Below, in pieces: positions 34,225 to 44,020 of a DNA stretch of 44,020 bases. Source of the DNA: Parvularculaceae bacterium (GTDB lineage Bacteria; Pseudomonadota; Alphaproteobacteria; Caulobacterales; Parvularculaceae); the NCBI GenBank assembly GCA_021776435.1, contig JAJFFW010000121.1, positions 1-44,020 of the forward strand, read 5' to 3'. Below the pieces are notes generated by a model that saw only the letters and a program-made list of their open reading frames with translations, was not told where the DNA came from and did no database searches. Made by a program: the position numbers and the translations under genes. Position 1 is the first letter of the stretch, and the number at the start of each line of letters is the position of its first letter.

Positions 34225-34316
34225 GCTGAGCCGCGTCTTTTGACGTGAGTGATGGCGACCCTCGCCGCACGGGTGGTGCGACGACCTTTTGCTTCAGTCA
34301 GATTAGCGAGATTCAC

Positions 34317-35636
34317 ATGCATAAGTTATTTGCCGTGGGAGCCTTGGCTCACGCGATTTCAGTATTGGCCGTAAGCGCGCAGGCGGTCGAGTTAGGCTTT
34401 GAAAGCCCGTCCTGGGGGCCGACGATTTCAGTAGACGAACTGGTCACTTCTGTCACAGGACGCAATGGCAGCCTGGAGGAAGCGAAAGCAGCAGCAAAAG
34501 CGGCCGCTTATCGTGTTGGTCCCGCAGGCGCGCTCGATGATCCCTTACTATCGTACAGCTTGGCGCCGGGCACCATCGGTGGGCAGAGTGTGGGTCTCGG
34601 GCAACGAGTGGAGCTTAGTCAATCGCTGCCATGGCCCGGCAAGCTGGGCGCCAGGCAAGAAGCGGCTCGCCAAAATGCCGCCGCCATGGAATCAGGCGTC
34701 GATGTTCGGCGGTTGGATATTATCGCCGCCACGAAGGCTGCGTACGCGGAATGGTATTTCATTAATGAAGCGATCCGACTGAACGAAGAAAACCGTGCGG
34801 TTCTTGAGGACCTTCGCGCGGTTGCTGAAGGCTACGTTTCTGCCGGTCAGGGGCTTCAACAAGACATTTTGCGGGCTGAATCGGAATTAGCTCTTCTCGC
34901 AGATCAACTCCTCCAACTCCAAGCTGAGAAGGTTGGCGTTCAAGCGCGCATAAATGCACTTATCAATCGCGCACCTGATGCTTTCATTCCGCCGCCAGAG
35001 GGCTTCCGGGCGACAACTTTACCCGAACTGCCCCTTCTGATCGCCACGGCACAGCAATACCATCCACGGTTGCTCCAATTGGAACACTATGCTGATGCGC
35101 GGGCCGCCGACGCAGAATATGCGCGCAAAGACTTCTACCCAGATTTCCGGGTGACTGGAGGGTATAACAGCCTTTGGGTCTCAAATGACAAGCGCTATAT
35201 GGTTGGCGTATCCATCAACATACCCCTGAATCAGGGTCGATTGAAGTCTGAGCTAAGTGCACGCCGAGCGGAAGAAACCGGAGCGCGTTGGCGCCTGGAG
35301 GACGAGCGCGCTCAGATTCTCAACGATATCGCAGCAGCTTATGCTGGAGCGCACCGCGCGGTTCAATCTGTTGCTTTGTATGAAAAGCAACTCGTTCCGC
35401 TAGCAGAGCAAACGTTGGAGGCATCGATCTCCGAATATCAAAACAGGGTCAGCGACTTTCTCAACGTCATAACAGCCGATCGCAACAAGTTATACACGGA
35501 GCAATCACTCTATCGCCAGCAAGCCGATTTTATGCGGCAAATGGCGGAGCTCGAAAATTTAGTTGGGGTCTCAATGGATGACCTATCAAGATCACCTGAC
35601 CCTTCCCAACAAACCAGTGAGATGAATCATGAATAA
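34317..35636 (+). CDS. cusC: outer-membrane efflux channel of the Cus/Czc system (TolC family)
   Basis: A 439-residue protein from ATG 34317. The open frame extends to 34245, but the signal peptide (KLFAVGALAHAISVLAVSAQ) fits this start. The long alpha-helical OEP repeats are visible as ELVTSVTGRNGSLEEAKAAA, with QSLPWPGKLGARQEAARQNA and FLNVITADRNKLYTEQSLYR, the typical CusC/CzcC patterns. There is no N-terminal lipobox. It forms the outer-membrane tunnel for the adaptor and pump encoded directly downstream. Its last codons overlap the adaptor start by 8 bases (ATGAATAA), indicating translational coupling. Confidence 0.88.
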   Translation: MHKLFAVGALAHAISVLAVSAQAVELGFESPSWGPTISVDELVTSVTGRNGSLEEAKAAAKAAAYRVGPAGALDDPLLSYSLAPGTIGGQSVGLGQRVELSQSLPWPGKLGARQEAARQNAAAMESGVDVRRLDIIAATKAAYAEWYFINEAIRLNEENRAVLEDLRAVAEGYVSAGQGLQQDILRAESELALLADQLLQLQAEKVGVQARINALINRAPDAFIPPPEGFRATTLPELPLLIATAQQYHPRLLQLEHYADARAADAEYARKDFYPDFRVTGGYNSLWVSNDKRYMVGVSINIPLNQGRLKSELSARRAEETGARWRLEDERAQILNDIAAAYAGAHRAVQSVALYEKQLVPLAEQTLEASISEYQNRVSDFLNVITADRNKLYTEQSLYRQQADFMRQMAELENLVGVSMDDLSRSPDPSQQTSEMNHE

Positions 35637-37164
35637 ACTTTTCCTATTCGCCGCGGGCATTCTCACAATCGGCTTGGCTGCAGGTTACGGAATTGCCCGT
35701 CTAGCGCAAACCGCCTTGCCAAAATTGGATGTTAGCAGCGACACATCAAGAGCGCGCAAGGTTGTCTATTGGGTCGCGCCGATGGACCCGAATTTTCGAC
35801 GTGACAAACCCGGCAAGTCTCCGATGGGTATGGATCTTATCCCTGTTTATGAAGGCGAAACGCCAGGATCCGATAGCGGCGAGCCTGGGATCCGAATTGA
35901 TCCAGCCGTGATCAACAATATCGGTGTACAAACAGATCTTGTGAAGCGTGGCGCGTTTCATCGGCAGATCAGTACTGTGGGTTTTATCGTTCCTAATGAC
36001 AACTTAATTGGCCACGTGCATGTCCGTACGGAGGGCTGGATAGAGGAATTGGCCGTTAAGACTGTGGGTGAAACAGTTGAAAAGGGTGATCTTCTCTTTC
36101 GATTTTATTCTCCGGATCTTGTCAGCGCCCAGGCAGAGTTTCTCCAGGCGCGCAAACAAGGCAGAGACGTCATCACCCAAGCCGTCCGCGCGAGGCTCAT
36201 GGCGCTCGGCATGGCGCCCCAGCAGATCGCTGACCTGACGGAGAGTGGTGAAATCCGACAACTCACGGATGTCTACGCGCATCATTCTGGCACGGTATTA
36301 ATACTCAGTGTGAGAGAGGGAAATCACGTCAAGCCGGAAGACATGATCATGGACATGGCGGATTTATCTTCGGTCTGGATTCTGGCCGAGGTGTTTGAGG
36401 ATGAAGCGTCATGGGTTAAGGAAGGAAAGACGGTCGTCATGACGCTACCGGCTATTCCAGGCGAGATCTGGAAAGGCGCAGTGGACTATGTCTATCCCAC
36501 AGTCGATCCGAAAAGTCGGACGGTGCAGGTTCGTCTCGTCTTTGACAATCCCGACAGACGCCTCAAGCCAAACATGTACGCCAATGTCGAGATCGAGGCG
36601 GCGACGAAGCCCGACGTCCTGACAATTCCGCAGTCGGCATTGATCCGCAGTTCCAAAGGCGGCCGGGTCATCCTTGCTCTTGGGGAAGGCCGTTTCCGGC
36701 CAGCCCAGGTTGTTGCCGGAATGGAAAGCGGCGACGAGGTTGAAATTCTGGATGGGCTTAAAGCCGGTGAGCGGATCGTCACCGCAAGCCAATTTCTCAT
36801 TGATTCTGAAGCGAGTCTCGATGCCTCGCTGTTACGCCTGAAGAGTTCCATAGACAGTGCGAATAGCTCAATGCCCGATATGGCAGGTATGGAAATGCCG
36901 GAACCAACCAAACCGGCGATCGGCACTGGCCGAGTGAAGTCCGTTGACGCACCGGCGCGTAAAATTGTGCTCGATCACGAGCCGATCCCCGAATTGGGGT
37001 GGCCGTCAATGACAATGGAATTTGAGTTGGGCAAGGGCGTGCCGCTGGAGACCGTTCAAGTGGGCGTGGCGATCCGTTTCGACGTGCGAAAAACTGAGAC
37101 CGGCTACGAATTGCTTAACGTGCACCCTGTCGCCGACAATGAAGCGGCAGGAGACAGCAAATGA
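35629..37164 (+). CDS. cusB: RND periplasmic adaptor CusB with fused CusF-like domain
   Basis: A 511-residue membrane-fusion protein. An N-terminal helix (4-23) anchors or exports it. A heavy-metal-binding YHS-like motif follows at 47-75 (YWVAPMDPNFRRDKPGKSPM). The barrel-sandwich hybrid and hairpin are around 125-230, and the beta-barrel and MP domains extend to about 400. After an Asn/Met-rich linker, residues 432-505 form a CusF-type copper/silver-binding domain. The aligned ligands are His in VLDHEPIP and Trp, Met, Met in GWPSMTMEF, all conserved. The metallochaperone is therefore built into the adaptor rather than encoded as separate cusF. It overlaps cusA by 4 bases. Confidence 0.92.
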   Translation: MNKLFLFAAGILTIGLAAGYGIARLAQTALPKLDVSSDTSRARKVVYWVAPMDPNFRRDKPGKSPMGMDLIPVYEGETPGSDSGEPGIRIDPAVINNIGVQTDLVKRGAFHRQISTVGFIVPNDNLIGHVHVRTEGWIEELAVKTVGETVEKGDLLFRFYSPDLVSAQAEFLQARKQGRDVITQAVRARLMALGMAPQQIADLTESGEIRQLTDVYAHHSGTVLILSVREGNHVKPEDMIMDMADLSSVWILAEVFEDEASWVKEGKTVVMTLPAIPGEIWKGAVDYVYPTVDPKSRTVQVRLVFDNPDRRLKPNMYANVEIEAATKPDVLTIPQSALIRSSKGGRVILALGEGRFRPAQVVAGMESGDEVEILDGLKAGERIVTASQFLIDSEASLDASLLRLKSSIDSANSSMPDMAGMEMPEPTKPAIGTGRVKSVDAPARKIVLDHEPIPELGWPSMTMEFELGKGVPLETVQVGVAIRFDVRKTETGYELLNVHPVADNEAAGDSK

Positions 37165-40100
37165 TCGCTGTACTCATTCGTTGGTCAGTCGCCAATCGCT
37201 TCCTGGTCATCATTATCGCGCTGCTTCTGGCTAGCATAGGCATGGTCTCCTTGCGCTCGACGCCGGTCGACGCCATTCCCGACCTCTCCGACGTTCAGGT
37301 CATCATCAAGACGACCTATCCGGGCCAGGCGCCGCAGGTGGTGGAAGACCAGATCACCTATCCGCTCTCAACGGCGATGCTTGCTGTACCTGGTGCGGTG
37401 ACAGTTCGTGGATATTCATTCTTCAATGATTCCTATGTCTACATCATATTTGAAGACGGCGTCGACCTGTACTGGGCACGTTCGCGCGTCCTCGAATATC
37501 TGAGCCAGGTCGCTCCGCAATTGCCGAGTGCGGCCAAGCCAGCACTTGGACCCGACGCCACGGGCGTGGGTTGGATCTTTCAGTATGCGTTGGTTGATCG
37601 AACGGGCCGGCACGATCTTTCCCAGCTCCGTGCGATCCAGGATTGGTTCCTCAAGTTCGAGCTTCAGACCCTCGACGGCGTTTCGGAAGTTGCGACCATC
37701 GGAGGGATGGTCAAGCAGTATCAGGTGGTTGCCGACCCCAATCGGTTGCGCGCCTACGACCTGCCGCTCGCCGACGTTCGGCGCGCGATCGAGCGCGGCA
37801 ATCAGGAAAGTGGAGGGCGCGTCATAGAGATGGCTGAGGCCGAATATATGGTCCGCGCCAGCGGCTATATCGATTCGATTTCGGATCTGGAGCGTATCCC
37901 ACTCAAGGTCACGGATGCCGGTACACCAATACTGTTGCGGGACGTTGCGGATATCCGTCTTGGGCCGGAGCTGCGCAGAGGCATTGGCGAGCTCAATGGC
38001 GAAGGTGAAGCTGTGGGTGGCGTGATCATTATGCGTTCGGGCGAGAATGCGCTGGCGACCATCGGCCGGGTTAAAGCAAAGCTGGAGAGCTTGAAGGCCG
38101 GGTTGCCCGAGGGAGTGGAGATCGTCACCACCTATGACCGATCTGGATTGATTGAGCGCGCCGTTGAAACTCTTCGGAGCAAACTTATTCAGGAATTCGT
38201 TATTGTTGCTTTGGTGTGCGCACTCTTCCTGTTTCATTTGCGTTCGGCGCTTGTTGTGGTGATCAGTTTGCCGCTTGGCGTGCTCGCCGCCTTCATTGTC
38301 ATGAACATGCAAGGGATAAACGCCAACATCATGTCCTTGGGCGGTATTGCCATCGCGGTCGGCGCCATGGTCGATGCGACGATCGTCATGATCGAGAATG
38401 TCCACAAGCGCCTTGAAAACCGGGACGTCTCGAGTCAGGAGCGATGGCATATTGTCAATGAAGCCTGTGTTGAGGTCGGGCCGGCGCTCTTTTTCTCTCT
38501 TTTAATCATTACTCTGAGTTTTACGCCAATCTTCGCGCTAGAAGCGCAGGAAGGTCGGATGTTCTCACCGCTTGCTTTCACCAAGACCTATGCCATGGCG
38601 GCGGCGACTGCGCTTTCGGTTACGCTTGTGCCTGTTCTGATCGGCTTTCTTGTTCGCGGCCGGATCGCGCCCGAGCGGCAAAACCCCGTCAATCGCATCC
38701 TGACAGCGGCTTACCGGCGGGTCATCGGCGTCGTGTTGCGATGGCCTGGCGCGACTCTCGTTTTGGTGGCGCTTGTGATGGCGAGCGCGATCATACCGGC
38801 GATGCGGCTCGGCGACGAATTCATGCCCGATCTTGACGAAGGCGATTTGCTCTACATGCCGAGCGCCTATCCAGCGATCTCGGCCGGCAAAATGGCACAG
38901 GTCCTTCAGCAGACCAACAAACTGATTGCGACAATCCCGGAGGTCGAAACGGTTTACGGCAAAGCAGGACGCGCCGAAACGGCGACGGATCCCGCCCCCC
39001 TCGCGATGATTGAGACCACTGTACAACTCAAGCCGAGAGATCAATGGCGCAAGGGCATGACGATGGATGCCTTGAAGGCTGAGCTCAATGGCCTTGTCCA
39101 AATTCCCAGTCTCACCAATGTCTGGATCATGCCAATTAAGAACCGCCTGGACATGTTGGCAACGGGCATCAAAACCCCCGTCGGGGTCAAGATCGCCGGT
39201 CCCGATCTGAACGTGATCAACGATATTGGCGGCCGCATCGAGCGAGCGCTCCAGCCGGTGCCCGGTACCGTATCGGTCTATGCCGAGCGGGTGACGGGCG
39301 GGCGTTTTATCGACATTGACATTGACCGCGAAGCGGCCGCGCGCTTCGGACTCAATATCGCTGATGTTCATGACGTGGTGCGCACGGCGATCGGTGGCAT
39401 GACCATTGGCGAAAGCGTTGAGGGCCTTGAGCGCTATCCCATCAATCTGCGTTATCCAAACGAGGTGCGGAACTCGCCGCAGCGCTTGAGCGCCTTGCCC
39501 ATCGTAACGCCGAGCGGCGCTGAGATTCCTCTCGGACGGATTGCTGAGGTGCGGATTGCGGAAGGGCCTGGGCTCATTCGCAGTGAAAATGCGCGTTTGA
39601 ATGGTTGGATCTACGTGGATATCGCGGGGCGTGACATCGGCTCCTATGTCGAAGAAGCGCGCAAGGTCGTTGCAGAAACGGTCGACCTGCCGGCTGGCTA
39701 TTCGGTCGCGTGGTCCGGACAGTATGCGTATATGCAGCGCGCCCAAGAGCGCTTCATGCTGGTCGGCCCAGTGATGCTGGTCATCATCATGCTGCTTCTC
39801 TTCCTGAACTTTAAAGACATCGTCGACGTGCTCATTATTATGGGAACCTTGCCGTTCGCATTGATCGGTGGGCTCTGGCTGATTTTTGCGCTTGGCTTCA
39901 ACATGTCGGTTGCTGTCGCCGTTGGGTTTATCGCTCTCGCCGGTGTCGCCATTGAGATTGGTGTACTAATGATTATGTATCTCAGGCAGGAACTTGGAGC
40001 GGTGGAATCAAAAGCCAAAGCCGATGGCCGGCGCCTGAGTACTGATGATTTGCGGGATGCGATTGGCAAGGGGGCTTTGAGACGCCTGAGACCGATCATG

Positions 40101-40319
40101 ATGACATTTGCTGTCATCGTCGCCGGGCTCGCACCGATCCTATACGGTCATGGAACCGGCGCCGAGGTGATGCGCCGGATCGCCGCGCCGATGATTGGCG
40201 GCATGATCAGCGCCACGATCCTCGCGCTGGTGGTCATTCCTGTTGTCTATTTTCTTTGGCGCCGTCGCGGCCTGAGCCCGCTTCCCGAGAAGCATTTGGC
40301 GGCTGAGTTGCGGCCATGA
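37161..40319 (+). CDS. cusA: copper/silver efflux RND pump CusA
   Basis: A 1052-residue heavy-metal-efflux RND transporter, the usual length. The N-terminal helix is followed by STPVDAIPDLSDVQVIIKTT and PGQAPQVVEDQITYPL, HME-RND hallmarks. Motif VGAMVDATIVMIENVHKRLE lies in helix 4 (proton relay). The cleft segment NRLDMLATGIKTPVGVKI keeps the Met that corresponds to one of the three copper-binding Met of E. coli CusA. ETATDPAPLAMIETTVQLKP also matches CusA closely rather than CzcA. It exports Cu(I)/Ag(I) using proton motive force. Overlapping starts show one operon of Cys-rich protein, cusC, cusB and cusA. Confidence 0.95.
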   Translation: MIAVLIRWSVANRFLVIIIALLLASIGMVSLRSTPVDAIPDLSDVQVIIKTTYPGQAPQVVEDQITYPLSTAMLAVPGAVTVRGYSFFNDSYVYIIFEDGVDLYWARSRVLEYLSQVAPQLPSAAKPALGPDATGVGWIFQYALVDRTGRHDLSQLRAIQDWFLKFELQTLDGVSEVATIGGMVKQYQVVADPNRLRAYDLPLADVRRAIERGNQESGGRVIEMAEAEYMVRASGYIDSISDLERIPLKVTDAGTPILLRDVADIRLGPELRRGIGELNGEGEAVGGVIIMRSGENALATIGRVKAKLESLKAGLPEGVEIVTTYDRSGLIERAVETLRSKLIQEFVIVALVCALFLFHLRSALVVVISLPLGVLAAFIVMNMQGINANIMSLGGIAIAVGAMVDATIVMIENVHKRLENRDVSSQERWHIVNEACVEVGPALFFSLLIITLSFTPIFALEAQEGRMFSPLAFTKTYAMAAATALSVTLVPVLIGFLVRGRIAPERQNPVNRILTAAYRRVIGVVLRWPGATLVLVALVMASAIIPAMRLGDEFMPDLDEGDLLYMPSAYPAISAGKMAQVLQQTNKLIATIPEVETVYGKAGRAETATDPAPLAMIETTVQLKPRDQWRKGMTMDALKAELNGLVQIPSLTNVWIMPIKNRLDMLATGIKTPVGVKIAGPDLNVINDIGGRIERALQPVPGTVSVYAERVTGGRFIDIDIDREAAARFGLNIADVHDVVRTAIGGMTIGESVEGLERYPINLRYPNEVRNSPQRLSALPIVTPSGAEIPLGRIAEVRIAEGPGLIRSENARLNGWIYVDIAGRDIGSYVEEARKVVAETVDLPAGYSVAWSGQYAYMQRAQERFMLVGPVMLVIIMLLLFLNFKDIVDVLIIMGTLPFALIGGLWLIFALGFNMSVAVAVGFIALAGVAIEIGVLMIMYLRQELGAVESKAKADGRRLSTDDLRDAIGKGALRRLRPIMMTFAVIVAGLAPILYGHGTGAEVMRRIAAPMIGGMISATILALVVIPVVYFLWRRRGLSPLPEKHLAAELRP

Positions 40320-40467: not shown

Positions 40468-40557
40468 ATGTTTGGAAGTATTAAGGAACAATTGTTGACG
40501 GTATTGTTTGCCGTTTTGGCTTTGGTGACATTTTATGGGGCTGGCATAGAACTTTAG
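40468..40557 (+). CDS. 29-residue single-helix membrane peptide
   Basis: ATG 40468 is preceded by a strong purine site (GAGGGAGAAGG, ending about 5 bases upstream). The 29-residue product begins MFGSIKEQ, then an uninterrupted hydrophobic helix of about 16 residues (LLTVLFAVLALVTFYG) and a short tail ending GIEL. The charged start and helix length fit a small inner-membrane protein. It follows cusA by 148 bases and could belong to the metal region or stand alone. The ribosome site and composition argue for reality; conservation is unknown. Confidence 0.5.
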   Translation: MFGSIKEQLLTVLFAVLALVTFYGAGIEL

Positions 40558-40575
40558 GTCACATCCCCATTAACC

Positions 40576-40669
40576 GTCATCCCGGATCTAACAACCATTG
40601 GCCGAATTCCTGTGGAATTCGGACGGTTGTAACAGCCTGCCCCGGACTTGATCCGGGGTCCGGGATGAC
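40576..40669. repeat. dispersed palindrome bounded by GTCATCCCGG / CCGGGATGAC
   Basis: The same terminal repeats as the element at 7906, but 94 bases long. Inside are two further hairpins: GGCCGAATTCC with GGAATTCGGAC, flanked by ACAACC/GGTTGT, and CCCCGGACTTGATCCGGGG. No gene lies in it. Confidence 0.75.
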
Positions 40670-40718
40670 ACGCGTTCCGGGTTTATGAGTCGGTGACCTA
40701 AACCGGGTCATCATTAAC

Positions 40719-40968: not shown

Positions 40969-40982
40969 TTGATCTGGATCAA
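40969..40982. promoter_or_regulatory. FNR/FixK/Anr-type box
   Basis: TTGAT-CTGG-ATCAA is a perfect match to the FNR-family consensus TTGAT-N4-ATCAA. A possible -10 (TATATA, 41024-41029) would put the box centre about 60 bases upstream of the start point, a usual activating position. It lies 170 bases before the MIO enzyme gene on the same strand, implying oxygen- or redox-dependent expression. Confidence 0.7.
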
Positions 40983-41151
40983 TTTTTCGGCGACCGCCAC
41001 ACGTTAGCAGTTAAAGCCTATTCTATATACGCCGCAAAATGACATCTGGAGAGCGAAGACGAGAACGCGACTTGTCACTTATTAGGGCGCGTTGAGGCAT
41101 TTCTGCTGTCGTGCGGGGTATCGTTGATAATAGAACGATGAGGAGTTCAAA

Positions 41152-42816
41152 TTGGACTTGAAAACCACACCACGCGATCAAACGAATACATTCGACTTGG
41201 ACGGCCAGGAGAATGGCGAACCATCGGAAGTGAACATTTTTATTCCTGATGGCGCCAGCATGAGCATCAAATCGCTGAGCGCCGCAGTTGATGATCCCAA
41301 TACCCGTGTAGAGCTCACACAAGAAATTCGCGATCGCGTTACAGCTTCACGGGACTTGCTGGAGAAGTTTGTTGATTCCGGACGCATTATCTACGGCGTG
41401 ACGACCAGCGTCGGGGGATTTGTGAACTGGTTGCTTCCGGCCTCCATGGCGAGTGAAGCCCAAAACAACATCCTGCGCTGTGTTCAATCAAATGTTGGCG
41501 ATTATCTCGACGACAGATTTGTACGTGCAGCGATGCTGGCGCGGATCAATTCGCTAGGGCGGGGGGTCTCTGCGATTTCACTCGTAAACCTCGAAAAATA
41601 TGTCGCCATGTACAACCGCGGTATCTTGCCCTGCATTCCGGAAAAAGGGTCGCTTGGCACCAGTGGCGATTTAAGCCCTCTCGCTTGCATCGCTCTCGTC
41701 GGCACCGGCCAATGGCGCGCCAAATATGAAGGCGAAATCATACCCGGCGCCGAAGCCATGGAACGGGCCGGCATCGAGGTGATGGAACTGAGTTACAAGG
41801 AAGGCTTGGCTCTGATCAATGGCACGTCGCTAATGGCGGGCATGGCAAGTTGCCTGACCGAGACGGCCAAGCAGCTGATCAAAGCCTATATGCTCGGCAC
41901 ATGTATGAGTCTGGAAGTGCAGAAGGCCAAGATCATGCCGTTCCATCCGGCGCCGCATGTTCAAAAACCGCATCCCGGTCAAATCAAAGTTGCAGACTGC
42001 ATTTACACGACACTTGCAGACAGCAAGATGATCATTCAGGACGCAGAGGTTGAGGCTTGGCTGCGCAAACTGGCTCAGGACGAGCCACGCAGCCTCGATG
42101 AGCAGATTGAAGACGCCTATTCTCTGCGCGCGACCCCTCAGGTGATGGGGCCGGTGCTGGATACGATCGGTTTCATTCAGCGCACGCTTGAGATCGAGCT
42201 TAACTCGTCAAGCGATAACCCTTTGATTGTGGTGGCTGAGAATGATGCTGTTCACAACGCCAACTTCCACGGCCAGTATATCTCAAACGCCATGGACCAA
42301 TTGGCCATCGTTCTGGCGAATATGTGCAATCTCTCCGACCGCCGTAACAATCGTTTAATACATCCAAGCTTAAACGGAGATTTGCCGCCCTTCCTGGTGA
42401 AAGAAAATCCGGGCATGCGCACGGGCCTGATGGGCGGACAGTTCATGGCGACGTCGCTGACAGCTGAGATTCGTCAGATGTGCACGCCGGTATCGATCCA
42501 GTCATTGCCGTCGACCGGTGATTTTCAGGATCATGTATCCTTCGGGCTGGTTGCCACACGGCGCACCCGTGATATCCTGAAGAACAGCGCCTACATTCTT
42601 GCCTATGAGCTGATTTGCGCCTGTCAGGCCGCCGATCTGCGCGGCGTGGACCAACTCAGTTCGGCAACCCGAAAAATGCACGCCCTGGTCCGAGAGAAAG
42701 TTCCTTATTTGGATTTTGACATTCCCCTCACGGATTACCTTGAAACAATTGCGGAAATGTATCTCACCGGCGGCTTCGATTCAGCAATTCCCGATCTGGA
42801 GGGATATGACTGGTAA
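41152..42816 (+). CDS. MIO-dependent aromatic amino acid lyase or 2,3-aminomutase (EncP/AdmH type)
   Basis: A 554-residue enzyme starting at TTG 41152, with AGGAG 6 bases upstream. The self-forming MIO cofactor triad is T170-S171-G172 in KGSLGTSGDLSPLACIAL. The Thr-Ser-Gly form is that of EncP (phenylalanine ammonia-lyase of enterocin) and AdmH (phenylalanine aminomutase of andrimid), whereas most family members have Ala-Ser-Gly. Catalytic Tyr81 (IIYGVTTSVGGF) and Asn223 (LINGTSLMAG) are present, as are ELNSSSDNPL and NFHGQYISNAMDQLA. It should act on L-Phe or L-Tyr, giving cinnamate or coumarate, or the beta-amino acid. A class III aminotransferase 11 bases downstream favours the beta-amino acid (aminomutase) reading, as inference. 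Histidase is less likely because motifs fit EncP better. Confidence 0.85.
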   Translation: MDLKTTPRDQTNTFDLDGQENGEPSEVNIFIPDGASMSIKSLSAAVDDPNTRVELTQEIRDRVTASRDLLEKFVDSGRIIYGVTTSVGGFVNWLLPASMASEAQNNILRCVQSNVGDYLDDRFVRAAMLARINSLGRGVSAISLVNLEKYVAMYNRGILPCIPEKGSLGTSGDLSPLACIALVGTGQWRAKYEGEIIPGAEAMERAGIEVMELSYKEGLALINGTSLMAGMASCLTETAKQLIKAYMLGTCMSLEVQKAKIMPFHPAPHVQKPHPGQIKVADCIYTTLADSKMIIQDAEVEAWLRKLAQDEPRSLDEQIEDAYSLRATPQVMGPVLDTIGFIQRTLEIELNSSSDNPLIVVAENDAVHNANFHGQYISNAMDQLAIVLANMCNLSDRRNNRLIHPSLNGDLPPFLVKENPGMRTGLMGGQFMATSLTAEIRQMCTPVSIQSLPSTGDFQDHVSFGLVATRRTRDILKNSAYILAYELICACQAADLRGVDQLSSATRKMHALVREKVPYLDFDIPLTDYLETIAEMYLTGGFDSAIPDLEGYDW

Positions 42817-42827
42817 GGAGAACCGCC

Positions 42828-44020
42828 ATGGTATCGCGATCGCGTGTAGAAAATACGATTTCTGCTTCGCCAGTTTCGCCAATCATGCAGTCCTATTGTG
42901 CCCGTACGCACTATAGTGCGTCGCTTCACGCTGACGCCAAACGGGTTATGCCCGGCGGTACTTCGCGGCAAGCTGGATATTGGACGCCTTACCCACTGGC
43001 GATTGAACGCGCCCAAGGAAACTATTTATGGGACGCCGACGGTCATCGCTATCTGGATCTCGTAAATAACTATACCGCCATGGTTCACGGCCACGCCTAT
43101 CCGCCGATTGTCGAGGCCGCGCAAGAGCAGGTTGCAAATGGCTCCGGTTGGTCGGCCGCCAACCCCATGCAAAACCGATTAGCGGAACAACTTGTTGAAC
43201 GCCTGCCGTCAGTCGAACAAATTCGTTTTACAAATTCTGGAACCGAAGCCGGATCATTAGCCTTCACCATCGCGCGCAAAATAACCGGACGCCAAAAACT
43301 GCTGATGGCGCGCTTTGGCTATCATGGTTCACTAATGGAATTTGAAACGGGCTCCTTCGGGAATGAGGGACCCCTGACTTATCTTGCGAATTATAACGAC
43401 GTTGATGACTTCAAAACCGTGCTCGCCAGATATGGTCACGAAATCGCGGCGGTTTTCCTTGAGCCCGTACTGGGCTCTGGAGGGGTTATTCCTGCAAGCG
43501 CCGAATTTCTGAATAGCGTCAGGGAGGCTGCACACAAGGTGGGCGCTCTGTTTGTGCTCGACGAGGTGCTGACCTATCGCTTTGCTGTCGGCGGCTGCCA
43601 GTCCATCATGGGCGTAGAGCCTGATTTGACGATGATCGGAAAAGGGATTGGCGGCGGGTTTCCGGTCGGCGCCGTCGGCGGCAAACGCGATGTGATGCGA
43701 GTATTCGATCCTGCTGACATGAAGGTCTTTCACACCGGCACATTTAACGCCAACCCAGTCACCATGGCGGCGGGATCCGTTTCGGTGCGTGAACTGACGG
43801 CTGATCGTATCACCAACATGCATATGCTTGCTAAAGAGTTGAAGACCGGCCTGACCGCGGCAATCAAAAATGTAGGTTTACCGGTTTCGATCAATCATTA
43901 CGGGTCGTGTCTCAACCTCTATTTCAGCGATCACCCGCCTGCATCTTCTATAGTGCGTGAAGACGCTGAAATCATGTCGAAGTTTCACCATGCAGCCATG
44001 AATCACGGCCTGTTCATCGC
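42828..44020 (+). CDS. class III PLP aminotransferase, probable beta-amino acid type (3' end outside window)
   Basis: The frame is open from ATG 42828 (AAGGAG 7 bases upstream) to the right edge, 397 codons. It belongs to the glutamate-1-semialdehyde aminotransferase-like class III group. Signals are the N-terminal VMPGGTSRQAGYWTPYPLAI (with the Arg used for carboxylate binding in beta-phenylalanine aminotransferases), LWDADGHRYLDLV, IRFTNSGTEAGSLAFTIARK, FGYHGSLM, Asp245 in VLDEVLTYR, and PLP Lys272 in MIGKGIGGGFPVGAVGG. It lies 11 bases after the MIO enzyme, so the two share a transcript. The likely reaction is transamination of a beta-aryl-beta-amino acid to the beta-keto acid. A plain glutamate-1-semialdehyde mutase is less likely from the context. 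Confidence 0.85.
   Translation, partial: MVSRSRVENTISASPVSPIMQSYCARTHYSASLHADAKRVMPGGTSRQAGYWTPYPLAIERAQGNYLWDADGHRYLDLVNNYTAMVHGHAYPPIVEAAQEQVANGSGWSAANPMQNRLAEQLVERLPSVEQIRFTNSGTEAGSLAFTIARKITGRQKLLMARFGYHGSLMEFETGSFGNEGPLTYLANYNDVDDFKTVLARYGHEIAAVFLEPVLGSGGVIPASAEFLNSVREAAHKVGALFVLDEVLTYRFAVGGCQSIMGVEPDLTMIGKGIGGGFPVGAVGGKRDVMRVFDPADMKVFHTGTFNANPVTMAAGSVSVRELTADRITNMHMLAKELKTGLTAAIKNVGLPVSINHYGSCLNLYFSDHPPASSIVREDAEIMSKFHHAAMNHGLFI

Follow-up and report, generated by a model that had tools for sequence, protein, structure and literature searches.

The 44,020-nucleotide stretch of DNA analysed here (the window; positions 1 to 44,020 of contig JAJFFW010000121.1 in assembly GCA_021776435.1, a Parvularculaceae bacterium) closes with two adjacent genes, one for a 4-methylideneimidazole-5-one (MIO) enzyme and one for a class III aminotransferase, which probably make up the first half of an operon for catabolism, by which L-phenylalanine would be converted to benzoyl-coenzyme A (benzoyl-CoA) and acetyl-CoA via β-phenylalanine, for anaerobic ring reduction. 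With somewhat less assurance, we also favor the broader reading that this operon belongs to a full anaerobic route for aromatic amino acids that has yet to be described, comprising a MIO 2,3-aminomutase, β-transamination, activation, thiolysis to aroyl-CoA and acetyl-CoA, and a class I reductase. The route would serve phenylalanine, and tyrosine where a 4-hydroxybenzoyl-CoA reductase is present, in alphaproteobacterial, gammaproteobacterial and more distant metagenome-assembled genomes (MAGs), and would come in two or more versions, whose aminotransferases and synthetases have diverged from one another. What would be new is the upper route, as the anaerobic benzoyl-CoA pathway below it is already known. 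The elements at the end of the window are as follows.

40969-40982, no strand assigned: FNR-type box TTGATCTGGATCAA with a palindromic core; the TTG start of the MIO gene follows about 170 bp downstream.
41152-42816, plus strand: AdmH-like MIO enzyme of 554 amino acids, with a TTG start behind GAGGAG (PF00221, 518 bits).
42828-44020, plus strand: class III aminotransferase (PF00202, 196 bits); its open reading frame (ORF) of 397 amino acids runs to 44018 without a stop codon before the contig ends.

The stop codon of the MIO gene and the ATG of the aminotransferase gene are separated by 11 bases, and because the contig (C26) stops exactly at 44020, the C-terminal end of the aminotransferase (about 37-45 residues, by comparison with relatives) is missing. 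The initial annotation had described an AdmH-type MIO enzyme with a Thr-Ser-Gly triad, an aminotransferase 11 bases downstream with a GGTSR-type N-terminus, and a perfect FNR box upstream; all three are present, the triad within GSLGTSGDL and the N-terminus as MPGGTSR, and AdmH proved to be the best solved relative of the MIO enzyme.

In the proposed pathway, the MIO enzyme would move the amino group of L-phenylalanine from C2 to C3, yielding β-phenylalanine, and the aminotransferase would hand this group to a 2-oxo acid, leaving benzoylacetate (3-oxo-3-phenylpropanoate). Benzoylacetate spontaneously decarboxylates to acetophenone, as described in the available text of PMC6150868, and an acyl-CoA synthetase would trap the unstable β-keto acid as benzoylacetyl-CoA, which a thiolase, predicted for the window's own genome, would split into benzoyl-CoA and acetyl-CoA. 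Benzoyl-CoA would then be passed to a class I reductase pathway, encoded by bcrCBAD, had, oah and a dch-like gene. The sequence from benzoylacetate through benzoylacetyl-CoA to benzoyl-CoA is known from acetophenone degradation, with a thiolase termed “so far unknown” in the available part of the source (PMC4729919). The four enzymes leave no step missing, whereas a route through a lyase would need a hydratase and a dehydrogenase, neither of which was found in the conserved set. The initial annotation had left open whether the pair works in this direction or in reverse; the forward, catabolic direction ending in benzoyl-CoA is the most likely, and we reject the biosynthetic direction by reasoning from energetics, since CoA ligation is ATP-driven and thiolase condensation is unfavorable.

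Among solved structures, the MIO protein scores best against AdmH (3unv; 570 bits, 53% identity over the alignment), followed by an entry titled histidine ammonia-lyase of the tyrosine aminomutase sequence family (3kdy/2rjr; 308 bits) and histidase 1gkm (250 bits). Its best NCBIfam model is the phenylalanine aminomutase model TIGR04475 (725 bits), against which the MIO proteins of three relatives score 724-743 bits, while it stays below the cut-off of the histidine ammonia-lyase model TIGR01225 (432 bits; cut-off 539). We aligned the protein with 27 relatives, AdmH, a tyrosine aminomutase and eight histidase-type proteins, the last chosen by their GSxGASGDL motif and including the second MIO protein of the window's own genome (contig C100). 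The active-site motifs in this alignment are those of AdmH, including GSLGTSGDL and the loop tyrosine motif YGVTTS, and FHGQ replaces the histidase-type motif FHAE. One pocket site is valine in AdmH and in all 25 operon-type rows that cover it (three of the 28 do not) and histidine in the tyrosine aminomutase and in 8/8 histidase-type rows. The maximum-likelihood tree places the eight histidase-type rows, the C100 protein among them, on one side of a fully supported branch and AdmH on the other. AdmH falls within a 29-row group (100/100) and adjoins the window's clade at 88/94, its exact place being unsure because its branch is long, and the MIO protein of L004, the closest relative, is the sister of the window protein (98/96). 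The window protein stands apart from the histidase-type proteins, and we propose that it is an L-phenylalanine 2,3-aminomutase. EncP, a known system of the same kind as AdmH, is set beside the MIO protein by description only, and AdmH stands for this kind in the comparison and the tree.

The aminotransferase likewise finds its best solved relatives among β-amino-acid transaminases, namely the Sphaerobacter enzyme 6k8h (276 bits), VpAT (4ao9; 273 bits) and MesAT (2yku; 261 bits), and the best glutamate-1-semialdehyde aminomutase (GSAM) structure, 3k28, falls behind them at 229 bits. The same β-transaminase set leads for the full-length aminotransferase of L016. With the HemL model TIGR00713, the window protein reaches 304 bits and the L016 protein 296, the cut-off being 527. 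The arginine column that binds the substrate carboxylate in VpAT and MesAT, which we take to be that of R41 in VpAT, is occupied by arginine in the window protein and in 16/16 relatives; GSAM 3k28 has no arginine there and a longer loop. For 6k8h, R36 might bind the substrate carboxyl group, according to the available text of PMC10589169. VpAT, MesAT and 6k8h share with the window aminotransferase this arginine column, the loop length and the region of the pyridoxal phosphate lysine, and we propose from these features that it is a β-phenylalanine aminotransferase. The β-aromatic amino acid reading of the initial annotation, which would have fallen had the MIO protein grouped with histidases or the aminotransferase been HemL, is thereby upheld on both counts.

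A scan of GTDB contigs yielded 22 related loci (L004-L025), all titled as MAGs, with 61-80% identity in the MIO protein; their neighboring genes were counted from tblastn matches. An aminotransferase is present in 16 of the 22 (and cut in L023), an acyl-CoA synthetase in 15 and a thiolase in 12, and all three stand together with the MIO gene in nine (L004, L005, L006, L009, L013, L014, L016, L018 and L020). The contigs of L007 and L010 end inside the thiolase, and that of L024 starts inside a MIO gene. No thiolase was found between aminotransferase and synthetase in L011, L012 and L017, and no aminotransferase adjoins the MIO gene in L008, L010, L015, L019 and L025. A divergent Lrp/AsnC regulator adjoins the MIO gene in 17/22 loci, and the MIO gene of the remaining five (L005, L014, L019, L023, L024) is about 430 bases or less from the end of its contig. 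The conserved neighbors identified include no gene for an enoyl-CoA hydratase or a hydroxyacyl dehydrogenase. The thiolase is far from solved thiolases (best score 116 bits); its catalytic cysteine is kept in 12/12 sequences, and the histidine and second cysteine in the 11/11 that reach that far.

Five loci (L014, L020, L021, L022 and L024) carry two MIO genes flanking the aminotransferase, and a second version of the operon is found in L020, L021, L022 and L024, with aminotransferases 33-34% identical to that of L016 and synthetases, where seen, 39-45% identical to that of L016. The second-version aminotransferase of L022 is closest to 6k8h (343 bits). In L021, indolepyruvate ferredoxin oxidoreductase alpha/beta-like genes lie near this second version (L021:15756-19462), and an HbpS-like gene stands directly behind the second MIO gene.

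The loci L021, L023 and L024 are nearly identical (MIO branches of 0.002-0.014 changes per site) despite titles that name Deltaproteobacteria, Neomarinimicrobiota and Gammaproteobacteria, respectively, which may reflect wrong binning or very recent transfer. As MAG contigs may sit in wrong bins, we do not claim the operon for each named phylum.

Genes that would complete the pathway are found elsewhere in the window's own genome. Contig C47, 26626 bases long, breaks off within an orthologue of the synthetase, which shows 66% identity to the L016 protein over residues 157-607, and behind it on the same strand follow had, oah, a dch-like gene, a TetR-type regulator gene, bcrC, bcrB, bcrA and bcrD, scored as follows.

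had, C47: 454 bits (cut-off 339).
oah, C47: 523 bits (cut-off 464).
dch-like gene, C47: 210 bits (cut-off 292).
bcrC, C47: 549 bits (cut-off 421).
bcrB, C47: 705 bits (cut-off 487).
bcrA, C47: 561.5 bits (cut-off 578).
bcrD, C47: 352 bits (cut-off 313).

L004 has the same genes in the same order on one contig, with a thiolase gene between those for aminotransferase and synthetase, up to bcrB, where its stretch ends, with identities to the window's genome of 80% (MIO enzyme), 71% (aminotransferase), 74% (synthetase), 76% (had), 82% (oah), 68% (dch-like), 61% (TetR), 80% (bcrC) and 85% (bcrB). Because L004 shows this order on a single contig, C26 and C47 are likely neighbors, and the gap between them would likely measure about 1.8 kb if a thiolase lies within it, as the comparison with L004 suggests. 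The initial annotation had pointed to CoA ligase and thiolase genes as the partners to look for, and both were found in relatives, the ligase in the window's own genome as well. Beyond bcrD, C47 encodes another thiolase-type protein (PF22691) at 353 bits, below the cut-off of 421. Behind bcrD on C47 we also observed a RidA-type gene (L067:6238-6666), whose product might handle imine or enamine intermediates; tblastn places relatives of it in L020 (46%) and, just behind the synthetase, in L019 (52%).

The MIO gene tends to co-occur with a benzoyl-CoA reductase. The bcrB gene is above cut-off in 18 of the 23 genomes with this MIO gene (the window's own and 17/22 others), but in 3 of 398 sampled genomes of the host phylum, one of them the window's own, i.e. 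in 2/397 others. The resulting Fisher p value of 6e-24 (17/22 versus 2/397) denotes a strong association rather than a calibrated probability, because the rows are not independent and the MAGs and the sample were drawn from different groups. In five of the 22 loci (L004, L012, L013, L016 and L020), operon and bcrB share a contig and are no more than about 20 kb apart. None of the 397 other sampled genomes of the host phylum gives a match to the MIO gene at E<=1e-110, and among 60 closer relatives, searched at E<=1e-60, 33 have only matches of 31-36% identity and 27 have none. The MIO gene is sporadic in the host lineage and was probably gained by transfer.

The initial annotation had named both phenylalanine and tyrosine as substrates, and the two fared differently. 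HcrA, of 4-hydroxybenzoyl-CoA reductase, is above cut-off in 7/23 genomes with the MIO gene, three of which (L004, L007 and L018) carry it on the same contig as the operon, so that both amino acids are probably substrates in some relatives with this reductase. The window's own genome has no HcrA match at E<=1e-100, and for this reason phenylalanine is better supported there than tyrosine. With seven of 23 genomes above cut-off, HcrA was rejected as a general part of the system.

Several observations weigh against a phenylalanine-to-benzoyl-CoA operon of this kind. The enzyme roles assigned to it are predicted from sequence, and in the MIO family mutases and lyases are indistinguishable by sequence; the MIO protein does not reach the cut-off of TIGR04475 (800 bits). 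For the window's genome, the assembly yielded no orthologue of the thiolase, the join of C26 and C47 is inferred from synteny, bcrA stands just below its cut-off and the dch-like gene below its own, and no Lrp-type gene adjoins the operon in the window. Among the relatives, L008 is placed by the tree with the window and L004 (100/98); its locus has just the regulator and the MIO gene, and neither aminotransferase nor thiolase nor bcrB is matched in its genome. The MIO gene of L015 has no aminotransferase, thiolase or synthetase adjoining it, and that of L025 none of these three either, though the L025 genome has thiolase and bcrB. In L010 and L019 the thiolase follows directly behind the MIO gene, and their genomes have no close aminotransferase (best matches 40% over part of the protein, and 34%). 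Across the 23 genomes with this MIO gene, aminotransferase orthologues at least 64% identical occur in 13 and thiolase relatives in 15, leaving eight without a thiolase match, and bcrB is not above cut-off in five (L008, L009, L015, L023 and L024).

A separate observation concerns L015 (L015:9968-14742), where a TetR-type gene comes after the MIO gene, together with genes for subunits similar to BcrC (248 bits; cut-off 421) and BcrB (213 bits; cut-off 487), both far below the cut-offs; they may belong to a different acyl-CoA reductase, or to a dehydratase, that works with the MIO enzyme.

Some of these points lend themselves to an alternative in which the MIO enzyme is a phenylalanine ammonia-lyase, the synthetase activates cinnamate, and β-oxidation with a hydratase and a dehydrogenase encoded elsewhere in the genome, followed by the thiolase, leads to benzoyl-CoA, the aminotransferase being separate. 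This scheme has the same end product and the same link to bcr. Besides the inseparability of the two activities by sequence and the unreached TIGR04475 cut-off, it could draw on the order in L010 and L019, and on EncP, an (S)-aminomutase that acts as a lyase too in enterocin synthesis (available text of PMC6413883 and PMC8773403). We nonetheless regard it as unlikely, since the conserved neighbors identified include neither of the two β-oxidation enzymes, and an enzyme of the β-transaminase type follows the MIO gene in 16/22 loci and in two divergent versions.

That the pair and its relatives make or salvage β-phenylalanine for a natural product, as AdmH does, is very improbable. AdmH is indeed the closest solved relative, but among the neighbors scanned, a part of all neighboring ORFs, there is no polyketide or nonribosomal peptide synthetase gene, in agreement with the initial annotation; thiolase, CoA synthetase and bcr genes are present instead, and we rejected an assembly-line role on this basis. 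Ordinary histidine degradation beside an unrelated HemL-like aminotransferase is scarcely credible. Histidase and GSAM models are among the near matches of the two proteins, yet both proteins stay below the respective cut-offs, the MIO protein has FHGQ at the histidase-type motif, and it is the genome's other MIO protein that falls with the histidase-type rows. Cut-offs, motif and tree led us to reject this identity.

Set against described systems, the catabolic operon combines familiar parts in a new arrangement. AdmH, the phenylalanine aminomutase of andrimid synthesis, has the same MIO loop and pocket motifs but serves an assembly line, whereas no such genes were seen nearby here and the MIO gene stands in an operon with a transaminase, a CoA synthetase and, in relatives, a thiolase, with a link to bcr. 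To our knowledge, MIO aminomutases are known only from natural-product synthesis, and a catabolic role would be the first. In Aromatoleum, anaerobic phenylalanine degradation ends in a class I benzoyl-CoA reductase, and the side-chain carbons leave as CO2. The pathway proposed here would use other intermediates and enzymes, and two side-chain carbons would stay as acetyl-CoA; the Aromatoleum route reaches benzoyl-CoA via phenylpyruvate and phenylacetyl-CoA (PMC9765128, available text). Acetophenone and ethylbenzene degradation in Aromatoleum, with benzoylacetate-CoA ligase (Bal) and a thiolase, shares the last two reactions with our proposal, but its benzoylacetate arises by carboxylation of acetophenone (PMC4729919, in the part available), and we liken the synthetase to Bal by reaction and not by homology.

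As for the β-phenylalanine aminotransferases, the soil strains described obtain β-phenylalanine from their surroundings and lose the keto acid as acetophenone (PMC6150868, available text), whereas in the present system a CoA synthetase would be available to capture it. Enterocin producers supply benzoyl-CoA from phenylalanine by a lyase and steps resembling β-oxidation (EncP, EncH, EncI and EncJ; PMC8773403, available text). That supply likewise uses a MIO enzyme, activates with CoA and cleaves the side chain to reach benzoyl-CoA, and differs in being biosynthetic and in running via cinnamoyl-CoA and a hydratase, with no β-transaminase. In the open literature searched, outside of which most subscription papers lie, we found among the papers listed no description of a route from phenylalanine or tyrosine to aroyl-CoA via a β-amino acid, nor of a system with this gene set, of which the initial annotation had known none.

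If correct, the proposal would describe a short path of four enzymes from phenylalanine to benzoyl-CoA in which two carbons of the side chain are retained as acetyl-CoA, would extend MIO aminomutases into carbon catabolism, and would point to a protein family as candidate for the benzoylacetyl-CoA thiolase missing from the acetophenone pathway (PMC4729919, available text). It would also mean that genes with near matches to histidine ammonia-lyase and glutamate-1-semialdehyde aminomutase can be an oxygen-free route for protein-derived aromatics.

The initial annotation had read the FNR box as a sign of use at low oxygen, and this held in part. Use at low oxygen would agree with the benzoyl-CoA reductase genes that follow the ligase gene, but the box is not conserved across the system. 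The pattern TTGAT-N4-ATCAA occurs once in the window, at TTGATCTGGATCAA, where chance would give 0.06 matches, and the genome has ten such sites compared with none for the reversed control pattern; at least six of the other nine lie within ORFs. No FNR-type box was found upstream of the MIO gene in any of the 19 relatives examined (88-268 bases each), and together with the intragenic position of those other sites this led us to reject the box as a defining element. The genome encodes a Crp/FNR-family protein with an N-terminal cysteine cluster (58 bits; FnrL cut-off 300), and oxygen-dependent FNR control of the MIO-aminotransferase operon is plausible in this genome only.

Another FNR-type box in the same genome (L084:2471, contig C19) precedes ORFs of the cytochrome c and COX1 families, perhaps for a nitric-oxide reductase or a low-oxygen oxidase; NCBIfam gave no match for these ORFs.

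A promoter and terminator scan stayed at chance level, Rfam had no match, and two imperfect inverted repeats were found. The AT-richer stretch between an efflux operon and the MIO gene holds, at 40553-40702 of the window, an imperfect inverted repeat of 23 nt whose arms are 78% complementary and 104 nt apart; Rfam had no match there. The efflux operon itself, just upstream at 34245-40319, is assigned by Pfam to heavy-metal efflux and encodes an outer-membrane efflux protein, a CusB-like fusion protein with a CusF domain and an AcrB/CusA-type pump.

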